Assembly: GCA_001804705.1 (NCBI GenBank)
Contig: MHAY01000013.1
Location: forward strand, 48,244 to 112,243
Direction: 5' to 3'
Length of the DNA: 64,000 nucleotides
From: Ignavibacteria bacterium RIFOXYC2_FULL_35_21
GTDB lineage: Bacteria > Bacteroidota > Ignavibacteria > Kapaibacteriales > UBA2268
Position numbers and translations under genes: made by a program. Each line of letters starts with the position of its first letter. Position 1 is the first letter of the stretch. Positions 14,840 through 35,783 of the stretch are shown in pieces. The notes below the pieces were generated by a model, which was not told the origin of the DNA, searched no databases, and worked only from the letters and a program-made list of their open reading frames with translations.

Positions 14840-17056
14840 TTATCTTGAAATCACAAAAGGATGGACACCAGAATTTAAGCCGCTTTCAATTCTAAGGTAA
14901 TAAAAACCTGTAATATAATTTGATACATTTAAATTTATTCCATTTAGAGAATCGTTGGCATCAAATAAATTTGAGCTGAGTTTCTCGCCTAAAGAATTGA
15001 AAATTGAAATCTTAATTTTATTTGGAATATCTTTGAATGAGATATAAAGTATATCGCTTACGGGATTCGGGTACAATTCAATTTTCAATGGTTCACCATT
15101 GGTTACAGCACCAATAATCGTATAAAGTTCAACATTATTATTTACGGTTGAATTATCATCAATTAATTCCACATTTGTATTATAAGTATAATACCCAACT
15201 TTATCGGCAAAAATTTTATATTTACCTGCTTTCATACTCCGCATTTCATATCGTCCCAAATCATCGGTAAAAGTAAAATTTCTGACATTCGAGTTTTGGT
15301 CGAGTGCGAAAACAAGAGCTCCTGCTATTGGGTCACCTTCCTTGAGTACTTGTGAGCTAACCATAAATGTTTCGCCCTGGGTAATAACTCCGCTTATGAT
15401 ACCTCTCCCGCTTTCATGAACAGGAAGATTTGGCACTTTAATAAATATTTCTTCTTTGATTGTTGTATCACCAATTTCAATCTTGGTAGCATCCCTCCAT
15501 GTTCTGATAACAGGATTATTTAACAAATAATATCCCGGTATTTTTCTTGAATTGGATGAAGTAAAGACCATTAATATATATTTCCCTGTTAGAAGACTCT
15601 CAAATTTGAAATTACCTGAGTTATCAGTCACTGCGTTCCGGCTGACATAACGCATATTCTGCATTGTATCCGGAGAGACTCTGAATGCTATAACATTTAT
15701 TTCTTTAATTTTGTTACCTTCATTATCTTTTACAACACCGGAAAGTTTGTTTGAAAATGTAGGTTTTTCTTTTAATACAAAGTCAATATGTTCTCTATTA
15801 CTATTTAACTCTATAATTGTAGCTTCTGAGGTATTATCTGCTTTATCATAAAACTGAGCTAAATAGTTCTGCCATGATGAAACGGTTGCTATATAATTTG
15901 AATTGCCTTCTAATCTAATCTCATAGTTCCCTTCTTCGTCAGTTATCATACCTTTTTTAGTCTCTTCAGACTGATTATTTCTGCCAACAAAATGAACAGG
16001 AACAAATGGGACTGGTGCTCCATCGCTTTCTCTTGTAACTTTTCCGCTTAACTTATAGGTTTCAATTGGAATATATTTATCAACTTTTGCCTCAACTTTG
16101 ATTTCATCTCCGCATTTAACTTCAATTCGCTTCGCTTCTGCTAATAAATAAGCATCCTCATACCATTCGGGAATAATTTTTTCACCTTCGAAACGAAGTA
16201 AATATACCCCTTCATCAACATCCATGCTGAACTCACCATTTGTAAATTGGAATGTTGATAATAATACAGGTTCGTTCTGAGGTGCACCAATTTGTTTATA
16301 TACTTTAACTAATCCTGATTCTACAAATTCACCCCCAGGATATTCTATAATACCTGACAGTGTTGTATGTCTTTTACAACTTTTGACGTTTATATACCAA
16401 AGTTTAAGATTAAAGAGGTTAGGATGGTTTATAGATATTGCTTTTATAATAACTTTATATACACCCTTTTCTGTTGGAAGCCAGTTCAATTCACCATTAG
16501 TATGAATAATACTCATTCCGTCAGGAGCTTCTGCTATCTCATACTTCAACATATCACCATTTGAAGCAACGGCATTTGCATCGTAATAATAATTTTCACC
16601 GACAAAGCCAACTGTGTCTGGGTTGGACGTAAATTCAATTCTCGGTGGATTTTCACCAATGGTTTGAAATACTATGTTGGAACGTTCACTTTCCCCGTAT
16701 TGATTATAAGCAGTTATAAAAAATGAATATTTCCCCTTATTTTTCAGATAAACATTAACAAAGTGATAACCCTCATTATCCTTTTTTAAAGAATCATTTC
16801 GATTAACTGTTTTTAGTAGTTGAAATTCAGATATTTCTTCTGTTTCACCATTAGCATAGTAAATTTTGAAACCGTCAATAGATGCTCCACCCGAGGTAAC
16901 TTTCCATTTGAATAAACCATAGTTGCCGCTTGGATTCGTCACAATGAAATTAGATGGAGGTTTGGGCTTTTCTTCCTTGCTATATAAATTGACTATACAG
17001 CAAAACATAAAGAAAAACACTAATAATATTTTGTATTTAATAGGATTACTTTTCAT
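14840..17056 (-). CDS. Secreted protein with fibronectin III-like, putative-Ig and carboxypeptidase-regulatory-like domains and T9SS type A sorting domain
   Basis: Signal peptide, repeated SGKVTRESDGAPVPFVPV / SGVVKDNEGNKIKEINV-type domains, C-term ELYPNPVSDILYISF...GFYYLRIESG. Confidence 0.75.
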   Translation of the reverse strand: MKSNPIKYKILLVFFFMFCCIVNLYSKEEKPKPPSNFIVTNPSGNYGLFKWKVTSGGASIDGFKIYYANGETEEISEFQLLKTVNRNDSLKKDNEGYHFVNVYLKNKGKYSFFITAYNQYGESERSNIVFQTIGENPPRIEFTSNPDTVGFVGENYYYDANAVASNGDMLKYEIAEAPDGMSIIHTNGELNWLPTEKGVYKVIIKAISINHPNLFNLKLWYINVKSCKRHTTLSGIIEYPGGEFVESGLVKVYKQIGAPQNEPVLLSTFQFTNGEFSMDVDEGVYLLRFEGEKIIPEWYEDAYLLAEAKRIEVKCGDEIKVEAKVDKYIPIETYKLSGKVTRESDGAPVPFVPVHFVGRNNQSEETKKGMITDEEGNYEIRLEGNSNYIATVSSWQNYLAQFYDKADNTSEATIIELNSNREHIDFVLKEKPTFSNKLSGVVKDNEGNKIKEINVIAFRVSPDTMQNMRYVSRNAVTDNSGNFKFESLLTGKYILMVFTSSNSRKIPGYYLLNNPVIRTWRDATKIEIGDTTIKEEIFIKVPNLPVHESGRGIISGVITQGETFMVSSQVLKEGDPIAGALVFALDQNSNVRNFTFTDDLGRYEMRSMKAGKYKIFADKVGYYTYNTNVELIDDNSTVNNNVELYTIIGAVTNGEPLKIELYPNPVSDILYISFKDIPNKIKISIFNSLGEKLSSNLFDANDSLNGINLNVSNYITGFYYLRIESGLNSGVHPFVISR

Positions 17057-17248
17057 TGAGCAATTTTAATTTTCATAAAAATATGAAATCCGGTAAAAAT
17101 ATTAAACCAATTTTATATTCTTTACCCTTGTCATTATACAAATAACACAGTAATTATAAATTAGTTGCAAAAATATTTAATTTTTTTTTAACAATTTCTG
17201 CATCTTTTTTTAAATTTATGTGTTAATATAGTTAATAAGTTAAATACT

Positions 17249-17824
17249 TTGGACGAAATGAGGCATAATTTTTCGACATATACCGACGAAAAGCTTGTGT
17301 TTCTTCTCCGCAGTGATAAGCGGGAAGAATCCGAAATCGCTTTTACTGAAGTATATAACAGGTACTCATCCAAGGTTCATGCTTACTGTTTAAGGATTTT
17401 AAATAACAATGAACAGGCTGAGGATATATTTCAGGAAGTGTTTATTCGGTTTTTTCAGAAGATAAAATCGAATTATCCCGATACAAATGTTCCGGGTTAT
17501 TTAATTAAAATTGCAAGAAATTTATGTTTGAACTATAAAAGAGATAAAGTTAATACAATTAGCATTCAGGAGAATGATGTTTATTTTGAACCGGGAAAAT
17601 CCTTTGAAAACTCGGAACTTTTGGATTTAATCACGACAGCTCTTGAACTGCTGGACTTTGAATATAAGGAAGCATTTGTCATGAGGGAATACGATGGTTT
17701 ATCTTATAATGAGATTGCTGAAGTAACAAATACGACAGTTACAAATGCAAAATCCCGTGTTTTCAGGGCAAAGCAAAAAATTAAAGAAATATTACAGCCA
17801 TATTTAAAGGATATGGCAAGTTAA
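17249..17824 (+). CDS. RNA polymerase sigma-70 factor, ECF subfamily
   Basis: YNRYSSKVHAYCLRILNNNEQAEDIFQEVFIRFFQ (region 2), EAFVMREYDGLSYNEIAEVTNTTVTNAKSRVFRAKQKIKE (region 4); TTG start at 17249 or ATG at 17258. Confidence 0.93.
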   Translation: MDEMRHNFSTYTDEKLVFLLRSDKREESEIAFTEVYNRYSSKVHAYCLRILNNNEQAEDIFQEVFIRFFQKIKSNYPDTNVPGYLIKIARNLCLNYKRDKVNTISIQENDVYFEPGKSFENSELLDLITTALELLDFEYKEAFVMREYDGLSYNEIAEVTNTTVTNAKSRVFRAKQKIKEILQPYLKDMAS

Positions 17825-17860
17825 TGAAAATGAATAATAAACAATATATGGTAAATTAAA

Positions 17861-19066
17861 ATGGATAACACAAAGCTTATACACGATTTTATGGACGGAA
17901 GTCTCGATGGGACTCAGGAAGAACAAATGTTCTACCAGTTCTCATCAAATGAGGAACTTCGTGCTGAATTGAAACAGCAAATTGCCATCAGGGAAGCAAT
18001 CCGAAATGATTCGAGGGCTTATACTCCTGCGGCTAATTCAACTGTCGGAGTGTTTGCGGCTCTTGGTTTCAATCCTCCATCTACTCTTGCAGTAACAGGT
18101 TCATCTGTTGCCAATGGTGGTATGATTGGACTCCTGACTAAATACAGGCAAGGATTAATCGGAGGAACAATTTCCGTTGTTGCCACAGCGGCTTTATTCC
18201 TGTTGCTGATGAATCCTTTCGGGAGTTCAGGTACAAATTTATCTGATTCGGGAAAATCTTCAATGGCACAATCACATGCCATTCCAGGTAATGTGCCAAA
18301 AGTTGAAAGCTTTAGCAATGATGCTCAAAAGCCACAGGTCAGGTATATTACAAAAATCAGATATATAGATGTCCCGAGGTATATTGCTCAAGAGCCTGTT
18401 CAAACTGTGCAGGAAAGCACAAGTTCAATTACTTCTGCCGAAGAATCTGACAATTTAGATTTGACTTCTTCTAATTTGGGAATTACTCTTTCACCGAGAC
18501 TGGATATGAGTTATAAAACAAATGGATTTTCCGATTTAGGCATGGGAAATACTTCTAACAAATTCAATAATCTGATTTTACCAGGTGAACAAATAGGTTT
18601 GTCTATTGAAGTTCGAGGTTCACAATATTGGAATTTTGATAATGAAACAATTCATCCGTTTAAGTATTCAAAATTCAACAATACGGCTGCAGCTCTTTAT
18701 TATAACTTATCAGATAATTTTGCTGTCGGTGGCGAAGTAAGGCAGGAAAATTTCTTCCAAAAATTTACAAGTCCGGCTCAGGACACAACTTACCAGCAGC
18801 AGCCAAACTTTACTTCTTTCGGATTAAACATAAGATACACATTGCCTTATGAGTTATGGGGATTTGAACCTATTATGCAATTAAATGTAGGAGCCAATAA
18901 TGCTGGTCCTACTGGTAGAATTATGCCAGGTTTTAAATATACTCCCTATCGTGATATAACATTTATCCTTGGAGGTGAGCTTAGCGGACTAAGATATCAT
19001 CATAAAAATGAACCATTCTATTCATATAAATTTGGTTTGAATTATGGTGTTATGGTTAATTTTTAA
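17861..19066 (+). CDS. Anti-sigma-like N-terminus + single TM + periplasmic linker + C-terminal outer-membrane beta-barrel-like domain
   Basis: N-term MDNTKLIHDFMDGSLDGTQEEQMFYQFSSNEELRAEL resembles anti-sigma/zf-HC2-like regions; TM GGTISVVATAALFLLLM; C-term alternating aromatic beta-strands ending in ...YKFGLNYGVMVNF (terminal Phe). Confidence 0.6.
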   Translation: MDNTKLIHDFMDGSLDGTQEEQMFYQFSSNEELRAELKQQIAIREAIRNDSRAYTPAANSTVGVFAALGFNPPSTLAVTGSSVANGGMIGLLTKYRQGLIGGTISVVATAALFLLLMNPFGSSGTNLSDSGKSSMAQSHAIPGNVPKVESFSNDAQKPQVRYITKIRYIDVPRYIAQEPVQTVQESTSSITSAEESDNLDLTSSNLGITLSPRLDMSYKTNGFSDLGMGNTSNKFNNLILPGEQIGLSIEVRGSQYWNFDNETIHPFKYSKFNNTAAALYYNLSDNFAVGGEVRQENFFQKFTSPAQDTTYQQQPNFTSFGLNIRYTLPYELWGFEPIMQLNVGANNAGPTGRIMPGFKYTPYRDITFILGGELSGLRYHHKNEPFYSYKFGLNYGVMVNF

Positions 19067-19106
19067 AAATATATTTTTAAATTAAAATTTTATAGTTGGT
19101 GAAAAT

Positions 19107-19745
19107 TTGAAGTACATAATAACATTATCTCTGTTAATTATTACAGTCATTATTCTCAATTCATGCAATGATTCGCTTGGAATTGAGAGGAATGTTATTA
19201 TTACTACAATTGATACCAACGGCAATGATACAACCGGAAAAGACACAATACAAAAAATTCCTGCGTCTATTGATTCATTTGAATTTCATGAAGAATTTTT
19301 AATGGATGGTATTTCTTATGAGTTTCCAATTAATGAACAGGTAACTTTTCAGGAAGCTTTTGTGGATACCTCAAGAGATCCGATTTATGTTTGGGTGAGG
19401 CTTAATATTATAAATAAATATGGGGACGATAGATACCAGGCTATTGGTAGGAAAGAATACACACAATCAATAAGGTTTACTGCAGACTCTCTCCAGGGAG
19501 TTGGGCCCTTTAAACTTATCGGTTCACCCAACAGCGGCTATTGGTCAGAACTTGGAGTAAGAAATATTGATAAGAAGGATAGTACATTTCTTTCGGGTTC
19601 ACAATCAAATTTTGATATACAGTTTCGTTCGGATTTTAAAAATCATCAAATAACAGCAATAACTTATGCAAAAATACCTAATCCTGCAGAACCTGATAAT
19701 CCAACTTATGTGACAGGTAATTTTATAATAAAATATCCAAAATAA
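19107..19745 (+). CDS. Putative lipoprotein of unknown function
   Basis: Lipobox-like signal peptide MKYIITLSLLIITVIILNSCND; directly downstream of 17861..19066. Confidence 0.6.
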   Translation: MKYIITLSLLIITVIILNSCNDSLGIERNVIITTIDTNGNDTTGKDTIQKIPASIDSFEFHEEFLMDGISYEFPINEQVTFQEAFVDTSRDPIYVWVRLNIINKYGDDRYQAIGRKEYTQSIRFTADSLQGVGPFKLIGSPNSGYWSELGVRNIDKKDSTFLSGSQSNFDIQFRSDFKNHQITAITYAKIPNPAEPDNPTYVTGNFIIKYPK

Positions 19746-26926: not shown

Positions 26927-27355
26927 TTATACCGGATTTTTGATTTTAAATACTTTCCTGAAAAACGGTTCAATTAATAATGCAAATAGCACGAATCCAA
27001 GACCCAGTGGAATGAGAATAGGAATCTTTATTCCTGAAAAAAATGATTTTAGATAAAGGCCAAAAGTATTAGTAAGCATTTCAAAATCCCTTGCAATAGT
27101 AAATTGACTTGCTCCTTCTCCTGATGAAACAGAAACGGCAAGAATAATTAGTGTAATAGATAAGACAACAAAAGTTACAAGAAGAAACCATGCTTTGCGG
27201 CTTATAATAGGCTTGTATTCTATAGCCCATACAGGTTTCATTGCTGATATTTGAGTCATTACATTATTTGTAAAATCCCCGGACGGCTCGTGAATACTTG
27301 ATTTCCTCAATATATTCTTCACGAGAAAGTCTGTGTTAATATTATCTTTTCCCAT
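26927..27355 (-). CDS. Putative membrane-anchored anti-sigma-like protein
   Basis: Short cytoplasmic N-terminus and TM segments; lies 3 nt downstream of an ECF sigma gene. Confidence 0.5.
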   Translation of the reverse strand: MGKDNINTDFLVKNILRKSSIHEPSGDFTNNVMTQISAMKPVWAIEYKPIISRKAWFLLVTFVVLSITLIILAVSVSSGEGASQFTIARDFEMLTNTFGLYLKSFFSGIKIPILIPLGLGFVLFALLIEPFFRKVFKIKNPV

Positions 27356-27358
27356 CTC

Positions 27359-27943
27359 TTACACCAAAATATTGATTTCTTCTTTTAATAATTTTTTCAA
27401 AATAATAAACAATTTCTTTCTGGAACGATATAGAATCACTTTTATGTTTGACCTGCTCAAACCTGTGATTTCACTTATTTCTCCTACTGACATACCATCG
27501 AGGTAGAACAATGTCAATAGTAAACTTTCATTCTCATCTAACTTATCGAGTGCTATATCTATATATTTTCTCTGCTCTTCGGCTTCGAGAGAGTTCAATG
27601 AACTATTTACAAAATCAGGCTCTTCGTTTTCAATGTATTCATCATCAATTCTCTCTGTCTTAATTTCCGTCTTACGCTTCCGCAGTTTCGATATGGCTGT
27701 CGTATATGCAATTCGATAAAGCCATGTCGAAAAACTCGCCTTTCCGTTGTAATCATTCATGCAAGAATAAACCTTTATAAAAGTATCCTGAGCCGACTCT
27801 TCTGCATCCTCCCTGTTTCGCAGAATCCGAATAGAAACAGAAAACACCATCTGCTTGTATTTATTGACAACAAAAGCAAAGGCATTTTTATCTCCTTTCA
27901 GAATCTTCTGAATATATATGTTATCGGAAGCTCCATCTTTCAT
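27359..27943 (-). CDS. RNA polymerase sigma-70 factor, ECF subfamily
   Basis: VNKYKQMVFSVSIRILRNREDAEESAQDTFIKVY; LTLFYLDGMSVGEISEITGLSRSNIKVILYRSRKKL. Confidence 0.95.
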   Translation of the reverse strand: MKDGASDNIYIQKILKGDKNAFAFVVNKYKQMVFSVSIRILRNREDAEESAQDTFIKVYSCMNDYNGKASFSTWLYRIAYTTAISKLRKRKTEIKTERIDDEYIENEEPDFVNSSLNSLEAEEQRKYIDIALDKLDENESLLLTLFYLDGMSVGEISEITGLSRSNIKVILYRSRKKLFIILKKLLKEEINILV

Positions 27944-34712: not shown

Positions 34713-35426
34713 TTATTCATTCCCGCATTTTATTTCGGGTAAACTATCTCTCCAACTCGTCCAGATTTCTAATTGTTCAGTTGACAGAAGAAGAGCTTCA
34801 ATACCATCCAACAGAGTTTTTGTGCAATCTTTTATTGCAAGACAAACTTCGACTCTTACCGGATTATTTTTTAATTCTTCTCTTGTGCTCTGAGCTAATT
34901 CCTGCAATGCTGCTTTCAACTGCTCTCTTGTCCAGCCTTCTTCTTTTGCCTGTTGCATTATGGTTCTTCTTTCCTGGTTTGCAGACTGAAGTATAGCTCT
35001 TTCAGATTCACGAAGCCTTTGCATAGCAGTTCTTACACAATCCATGTGTTCCCTGAGCAATAATTTGACAGCATCAATCTGTTCTTGTGTCAAATCAAGC
35101 TTACGCAATATCATTCCAAGATGTAGCCTTTGACCTCTGCCGTTACGCATGTCGCCGAACCTACCACCATCACGGCCATCCCTGCTGCCATTCCAACCCA
35201 TGAATTGACAATCCTCATTGGAATATCCGGTTGGTGGTAACATCATAAATTCAGACGTTTCGGATGCGTCCTGAATGTCACTCGGTGTGTTATCTGTTAC
35301 GGGCAATTGAAATTCGGTTGAACTAAACATATCATTTGTTGGGCCTGTTGATTTTTGACATGAGCTCATTGTCATAAACAATCCGACAACAAACAATGAT
35401 AACATTAATACACTTAATCTTTTCAT
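34713..35426 (-). CDS. Putative lipoprotein with Spy/LTXXQ-like helical region
   Basis: Lipobox MTMSSCQKS; LDLTQEQIDAVKLLLREHMDCVRTAMQRLRESERAIL. Confidence 0.55.
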   Translation of the reverse strand: MKRLSVLMLSLFVVGLFMTMSSCQKSTGPTNDMFSSTEFQLPVTDNTPSDIQDASETSEFMMLPPTGYSNEDCQFMGWNGSRDGRDGGRFGDMRNGRGQRLHLGMILRKLDLTQEQIDAVKLLLREHMDCVRTAMQRLRESERAILQSANQERRTIMQQAKEEGWTREQLKAALQELAQSTREELKNNPVRVEVCLAIKDCTKTLLDGIEALLLSTEQLEIWTSWRDSLPEIKCGNE

Positions 35427-35783
35427 ATTACTTCTCCAAAAAAAGTATTTAATAAAAAAATAATTTTTAACTTTGATTCTTTGACACCCAATATCGTTTT
35501 TTGGTTTAAAATTATTTTGAGCATCATGCTTTTATTACAAATAACACAAAATATCTAAAATGGTTGCAAAATTTTTTACAGAAGAATAAAATTAATTAAT
35601 AACTGTTGAAATTGTGTTCATTTTTTAAGTTGTATTGTTAACACATTATTAGGTCTAATGTCTTAGCAAATATTAATTTAATAATGATAAATTTATTACA
35701 ATTCTTTAATTAAAAATAATTTACTTAATATCGCAACGTCAGAATTAATGTAATTTTTGTTAGTTTCTAAATGAGGAAATAAA

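Follow-up and report, generated by a model that had tools for sequence, protein, structure and literature searches.

How could an event at the outer membrane be conveyed to a cytoplasmic sigma factor by a single polypeptide, when such signaling normally takes several proteins? The locus considered here raises this question, since the initial annotation of the window (the whole stretch of 64,000 nucleotides that was analyzed) had placed a fusion protein between the genes of an ECF sigma factor and a lipoprotein, and had suggested that this one chain, unless processed into two parts, could link a sigma-binding domain to an outer-membrane sensor. The suggestion is supported by the computed pairing with the sigma factor, by homology to anti-sigma factors and by the predicted barrel fold. 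The reading that we favor, at a probability of roughly 0.85, is that of one chain running from cytoplasmic sigma binding through the inner membrane and the periplasm to an outer-membrane barrel.

Organization of the Locus

All three ORFs are present where the initial annotation had placed them (Table 1); their order holds and their spacing is slightly different, the gap between the sigma and fusion genes being 36 nt and not 37. The sigma factor matches the Pfam families Sigma70_r2 (E 3e-15) and Sigma70_r4_2 (E 1e-15), and by E-value its closest NCBIfam models are TIGR02985, for which it stays under the cut-off, and TIGR02937, the general model of sigma70-ECF factors, whose cut-off it exceeds. 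An ATG at 17258 is as likely a start of this ORF as the TTG at 17249, because the same-genus homologues favor a MR[HQ]NFSTYTD start. The fusion protein, queried alone, gave no Pfam or NCBIfam family match, and no curated family covers it. Elsewhere in the window (26927-27943, minus strand), an ordinary pair, formed by an ECF sigma factor (27359-27943) and a 142-aa protein with transmembrane segments, lacks a barrel and contrasts with the fusion.

Table 1. Features of the sigma–fusion–lipoprotein locus and of associated promoter sites (positions in the window).
Feature	Position	Strand	Basis or remarks
Divergent gene, secreted protein, predicted sigma target	14840..17056	-	fn3, CarboxypepD_reg and T9SS C-terminal sorting domains
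Second promoter copy, facing the divergent secreted-protein gene	17143..17169	-	Strict pattern match
ECF-type operon promoter, TGCATC ... GTGTTA	17197..17226 (pattern core 17199-17225)	+	Same site in same-genus operons
ECF sigma factor	17249..17824	+	TTG start; Sigma70_r2 and Sigma70_r4_2 matches; member of the sigma clade that pairs with fusions (support 99)
Fusion protein, 401 aa	17861..19066	+	ORF between the sigma and lipoprotein genes
Putative cytoplasmic anti-sigma domain, residues 1-70, helical	17861..18070	+	Predicted structure, homology, conservation
Predicted single transmembrane helix, residues 98-118	18152..18214	+	Family-average charge net positive before, slightly negative after
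Putative periplasmic tether, residues 119-244, without predicted fold	18215..18592	+	IPxxxS-like motif (V145-P146), KYIYI-like motif (R167-Y168)
Predicted 8-strand outer-membrane beta-barrel, residues 245-401, Phe C-terminus	18593..19063	+	Structure prediction
Lipoprotein, third gene of the operon	19107..19745	+	TTG start, lipobox LNSC
Third exact copy of the promoter pattern in the window, 5′ of lipoprotein gene 34713-35426 (-)	35542..35568	-	Strict pattern match

Distribution and Linkage to ECF Sigma Factors

Co-linear full-length homologues without internal stops were found in 52 of the 55 genomes of the family, and the module is present in 120 of the 124 genomes of the order (100 of the 101 of good quality), with 1–14 copies in each; the source genome itself carries six full-length copies. 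This recurrence of co-linear homologues in 120/124 genomes of the order rules out a chance fusion, a frameshift or an assembly error. A tblastn search for plasmid relatives gave no match.

The surroundings of more than 100 homologues were retrieved, and the non-redundant set comprised 135 unique full-length proteins. In the first set, a same-strand ECF sigma gene lies directly upstream of 119 of the 120 matching ORFs, the exception being located at a contig end, and all 135 unique full-length homologues are encoded directly 3′ of an ECF sigma gene, with a median gap of 15 nt (134 recognized by an automatic filter and one, L148, by eye). The sigma–fusion layout noticed at this locus is thus shared by the related genomes, where both halves of the protein remain linked to each other and to sigma genes. 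In a FastTree tree, the partner sigmas form one group (80/80, support 99). Just two further sequences join it, one paired with another full-length fusion (L178) and the other with a gene truncated at a contig end (L175), whereas the other ECF sigmas sampled from the source genome and the sigmas of the short anti-sigmas fall outside it. Judged by this distribution, the module is old and conserved.

Regarding the lineage, FMO was detected in 36 of 149 genomes of the phylum of the source genome, corresponding to FMO-bearing green sulfur bacteria, and NigD, which is common in Bacteroidales and was present in the Bacteroides control, in 3 of 197. Neither as a marker nor as a partner was NigD found in the source genome or in the listed genomes of the family and order. 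Since the phylum holds FMO-bearing green sulfur bacteria and almost no NigD, the lineage probably belongs to the Chlorobi/Ignavibacteria/Kapabacteria side, outside the class Bacteroidia.

Architecture of the Fusion Protein

In other families of the class and phylum, the N-terminal profile of the fusions detects short proteins of ~150-240 aa with one transmembrane segment and without a barrel, nearly all of which adjoin an ECF sigma gene and some of which carry the zf-HC2 zinc anti-sigma motif. The alignment of the fusion profile with that of these short anti-sigmas reaches an hhalign probability of 98.7% (E 3e-16). Among 177,635 PDB sequences, the domain is matched best by the portions of RseA (E 0.09) and RsiW (E 0.11) that bind the sigma factor, each match being weak alone; of 60 relatives, 10 match RseA_N (E 8.8e-5 at best), and the window protein scores 12.9 bits against this family (E 0.17), under the Pfam cut-off of 24. 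These homologies are in agreement with the sigma-binding type of N-terminus that had been proposed, and on their basis the N-terminus is an anti-sigma domain homologous to the ordinary short anti-sigmas of sister lineages. Cysteine is absent in 99 of the 135 full-length homologues, and most fusions therefore represent a zinc-free version of such a domain. The anti-sigma fold rests on sequence homology because the full-length AlphaFold2 model, built on an alignment of two sequences, is poor (pLDDT 42).

Related anti-sigma domains also occur in other combinations. One of them (L186:1982-3079), adjoining an ECF-like sigma gene, is fused to a trypsin-like protease domain, and in others with an adjacent ECF sigma (L168:2060-2767, L172:2012-2719, L187 and L188) the periplasmic end matches AMPK1_CBM/CBM_48 carbohydrate-binding domains.

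The full-length model contains helices at residues 3-67, a transmembrane helix at ~98-118 and eight main strands at 246-400, with no secondary structure and low pLDDT from residue ~120 to 245. When the C-terminal 170 residues are folded alone by AlphaFold2, an 8-strand barrel is obtained with a pLDDT of 74, the nearest PDB folds being OmpA (E 1.6e-7), NspA and OmpW. Among the relatives, 8 of 60 match the Pfam family OMP_b-brl, and a C-terminal Phe, the usual ending of outer-membrane proteins, is found in 94 of the 135 full-length homologues. The barrel that the initial annotation had read from the alternating strands of the C-terminal half is thus recovered by modeling, which points to an OmpA/NspA-like outer-membrane barrel, and the one transmembrane segment claimed between the N-terminal domain and the periplasmic linker is also confirmed as a single predicted helix. 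Over the family set, the hydropathy profiles indicate one such segment, with a mean net charge of +2.0 before the helix and -0.6 after it and without an N-terminal signal peptide, a pattern that fits an N-in, C-out topology.

The tether measures 104-193 aa (median 131) in 134 proteins and about 125 aa in the window protein. An extended chain covers ~0.36 nm per residue and the periplasm is usually 20-30 nm wide; even the shortest tether, at ~37 nm when extended, is therefore long enough to cross it, and a single chain could bridge the two membranes. An 8-strand barrel has both termini on the periplasmic side, a geometry compatible with its entry from the tether. Conservation in the tether amounts to 0.53 bits per column, versus 1.71 in the anti-sigma domain and 1.48 in the barrel. 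Amid this variable sequence stand two motifs, at window positions 18293-18301 (IPxxxS-like) and 18356-18373 (KYIYI-like), which are also found in homologues. The pattern [IVL]P[IVM][IVTM][SEK][SN], 15-31 aa outside the transmembrane helix, occurs in 21 of 134 proteins versus 0.35 in shuffles, and the KYIYI-like motif, ~48 aa outside it, in 24 of 134 versus 0.05. Either motif could be a protease or partner site.

Co-Variation and the Lipoprotein Family

Sequence distances between sigma factors correlate with those between their anti-sigma domains (r 0.72), compared with a mean of 0.20 and a maximum of 0.35 in 1000 reshufflings within genomes, and with those between barrels (r 0.41; reshuffled maximum 0.24). 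Among paralogues within one genome, the correlation is 0.53 for sigma and anti-sigma domain and -0.09 for sigma and barrel. Downstream of the fusion, one lipoprotein family is found in 92 of the 116 operons that have a downstream ORF, with a clear lipobox in 76, and its distances correlate with those of the barrel (r 0.66), the anti-sigma domain (0.54) and the sigma (0.49), the respective reshuffled maxima being 0.40, 0.33 and 0.26. This gradient fits an arrangement in which the sigma would act with the anti-sigma domain in the cytoplasm, and the barrel with the lipoprotein at the outer membrane; as neighboring genes are inherited together, co-variation falls short of proof of contact. At L038:2769-3479 and in its relatives, the third gene of the operon encodes a DUF4397 lipoprotein in place of the main family.

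Promoter and Candidate Regulon

A site of ECF form, TTTGnAACnnnTTTT-N10-GTGTTA, is common to the sequences that precede the sigma genes, and in leave-one-out scoring it exceeds 12 bits in 54 of 102 non-redundant operons. In the controls, this threshold was passed by 0/102 sigma coding stretches and 0/102 shuffled regions, and by 19/300 regions lying 5′ of other ORFs; a portion of the latter regions may share sequence with the same operon region. The strict pattern TGNAWCNNNWTNNNNNNNNNNGTGTNA has 17 matches in the source genome and none when read backwards, and 61 across four genomes of the genus versus 1 in the backwards control; TGTA and TGAA variants occur among the sites. The paired divergent arrangement (window 17143-17225) recurs in 4/4 genomes of the genus.

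Apart from the operon itself and the divergent secreted-protein gene, the shared promoter precedes about a dozen other exported-protein genes. Leaving the sigma gene aside, nearly all the targets in the source genome carry a signal peptide or a lipobox according to simple rules, many candidate targets are orthologous between genomes, and their domains include Ig-like, CarboxypepD_reg, IgGFc-binding, BNR and glycosyl-hydrolase types. The paralogue operons of the source genome have different sites or none of this type, and at least part of the site set should therefore belong to the sigma factor of the window. The divergent T9SS-type secreted protein is placed among its predicted targets, and secreted and surface proteins are its candidate regulon. 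The lipoprotein encoded at 34713-35426 (minus strand), with the shared promoter upstream, contains LTxxQ-like stretches; a Spy-like identity was set aside, as Pfam gives no matches despite these stretches.

Proposed Mechanism and Alternatives

In the resting state, the N-terminal helices would hold the ECF sigma in the cytoplasm, the single helix would cross the inner membrane with the N-terminus in and the C-terminus out, the long tether would cross the periplasm, and the 8-strand barrel would sit in the outer membrane, probably in association with the lipoprotein of the operon. A change there, affecting the barrel or the lipoprotein or consisting in envelope damage, would be passed along the tether and free the sigma, possibly through proteolysis near the inner membrane, and the freed sigma would transcribe its own operon and the genes of secreted and surface proteins. 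Computation supports the sigma pairing, the anti-sigma homology, the one transmembrane helix, the sufficient length of the tether, the barrel fold, the co-variation of the lipoprotein and the shared promoter. What we infer for this scheme is the simultaneous insertion of one intact chain in the two membranes of the living cell, together with the nature of the signal and the proteolytic release.

The flexibility and poor conservation of the tether, together with its conserved proline-containing motif, which is located 15-31 aa outside the inner membrane and could be a cleavage site, also suit a protein that, once exported, is cleaved to give an anti-sigma in the inner membrane and a separate barrel in the outer membrane, the two parts sharing only a gene. 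Nevertheless, no tether among the 134 proteins is shorter than 104 aa and their lengths fall in a narrow range, as expected of a span and needless if the chain were always cut, and no barrel-only copies were seen beside these sigmas; cleavage of this kind is therefore considered unlikely. More improbable still, and by far, is a fused form of TonB-dependent cell-surface signaling of the FecI/FecR/FecA kind, which shares the logic of an outer-membrane event reaching an ECF sigma, but whose receptor would be too large for an 8-strand barrel. A TonB/FecR fusion was rejected after Pfam searches of the window protein and its relatives returned no FecR, STN, plug or TonB-receptor domains.

Within the one-chain reading, the signal itself might be a failure of barrel assembly, the unfolded periplasmic C-terminus triggering cleavage of its own tether, as a sigma-E/DegS system acting in cis. 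The outer-membrane-protein-like C-terminal Phe of most homologues, the proximity of the N-terminal domain to RseA, and the service of a similar P. vulgatus protein in the envelope-stress response (PMC9308784) speak for this sub-case. A lipoprotein co-varying with the barrel and a separate barrel sequence for each paralogue, as reflected in the lack of sigma–barrel correlation within genomes, are more readily reconciled with distinct ligands or surfaces than with a single general alarm, and render it a rather doubtful, though not negligible, option.

Returning to the trans-envelope chain as a whole, a broader scenario is put forward tentatively, with somewhat less than even confidence: within the FCB group, a three-part sensor would have evolved not in Bacteroidia but on the Chlorobi/Ignavibacteria side, when a short class I anti-sigma gained a tether and a barrel, and each barrel would have its own lipoprotein. 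Up to 14 such sensors per genome would control the secreted and surface proteome, the barrel and lipoprotein forming a head that reads the ligand, and the tether relaying the signal to the sigma mechanically or through proteolysis.

Comparison with Known Systems

The architecture is already published in Bacteroides (Dma, PMC13088901) and in Phocaeicola vulgatus (PMC9308784), and what is added here is the order-wide, multi-copy distribution, the link to short anti-sigmas, the co-varying lipoprotein, and the promoter together with the exported proteins that form its candidate regulon. A near-universal module with up to fourteen copies, often with its own lipoprotein and a readable promoter, opens signal, tether and targets to direct testing, and extends the Dma idea past gut Bacteroides.

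RseA and RsiW resemble the fusion in a related N-terminal sigma-binding domain and one transmembrane helix, but they end in the periplasm or outside, whereas the fusion continues with a tether and an outer-membrane barrel. In EcfO-Reo and M0N98_03761-03760 of Bacteroides and Phocaeicola, the gene after the ECF sigma likewise encodes an anti-sigma that is predicted to cross the periplasm and to end in an outer-membrane barrel (PMC9308784, PMC13114119). This system is induced by antibacterial toxin, likely via envelope stress (PMC9308784, PMC13114119); the P. vulgatus pair M0N98_03760-61, of the same layout, responds to such a toxin (PMC9308784). Its regulon includes nigD genes (PMC9308784, PMC13114119), in contrast to the candidate regulon found here, composed of secreted and surface proteins with Ig-like, CarboxypepD_reg and IgGFc-binding domains.

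The closest parallel, and an experimental precedent, is provided by the pairs Dma1/Das1 and Dma2/Das2 of B. thetaiotaomicron. Dma1 and Dma2 possess an N-terminal anti-sigma domain, a transmembrane helix and a long disordered tether that leads to a barrel at the C-terminus, and each is encoded adjacent to an ECF21 sigma; the loss of Dma2 strongly induces its operon (PMC13088901). The module described here shares every one of these architectural elements, including the adjacent ECF sigma, as well as the further operon genes and the several paralogues per genome, and may work like Dma, a likeness of architecture. It differs in being apparently outside the class Bacteroidia, in its almost universal presence in the order at 1-14 copies per genome, and in its lipoprotein family co-varying with the barrel and its tight ECF-type promoter. 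As in Dma, a single chain seems to do here the work of several proteins.
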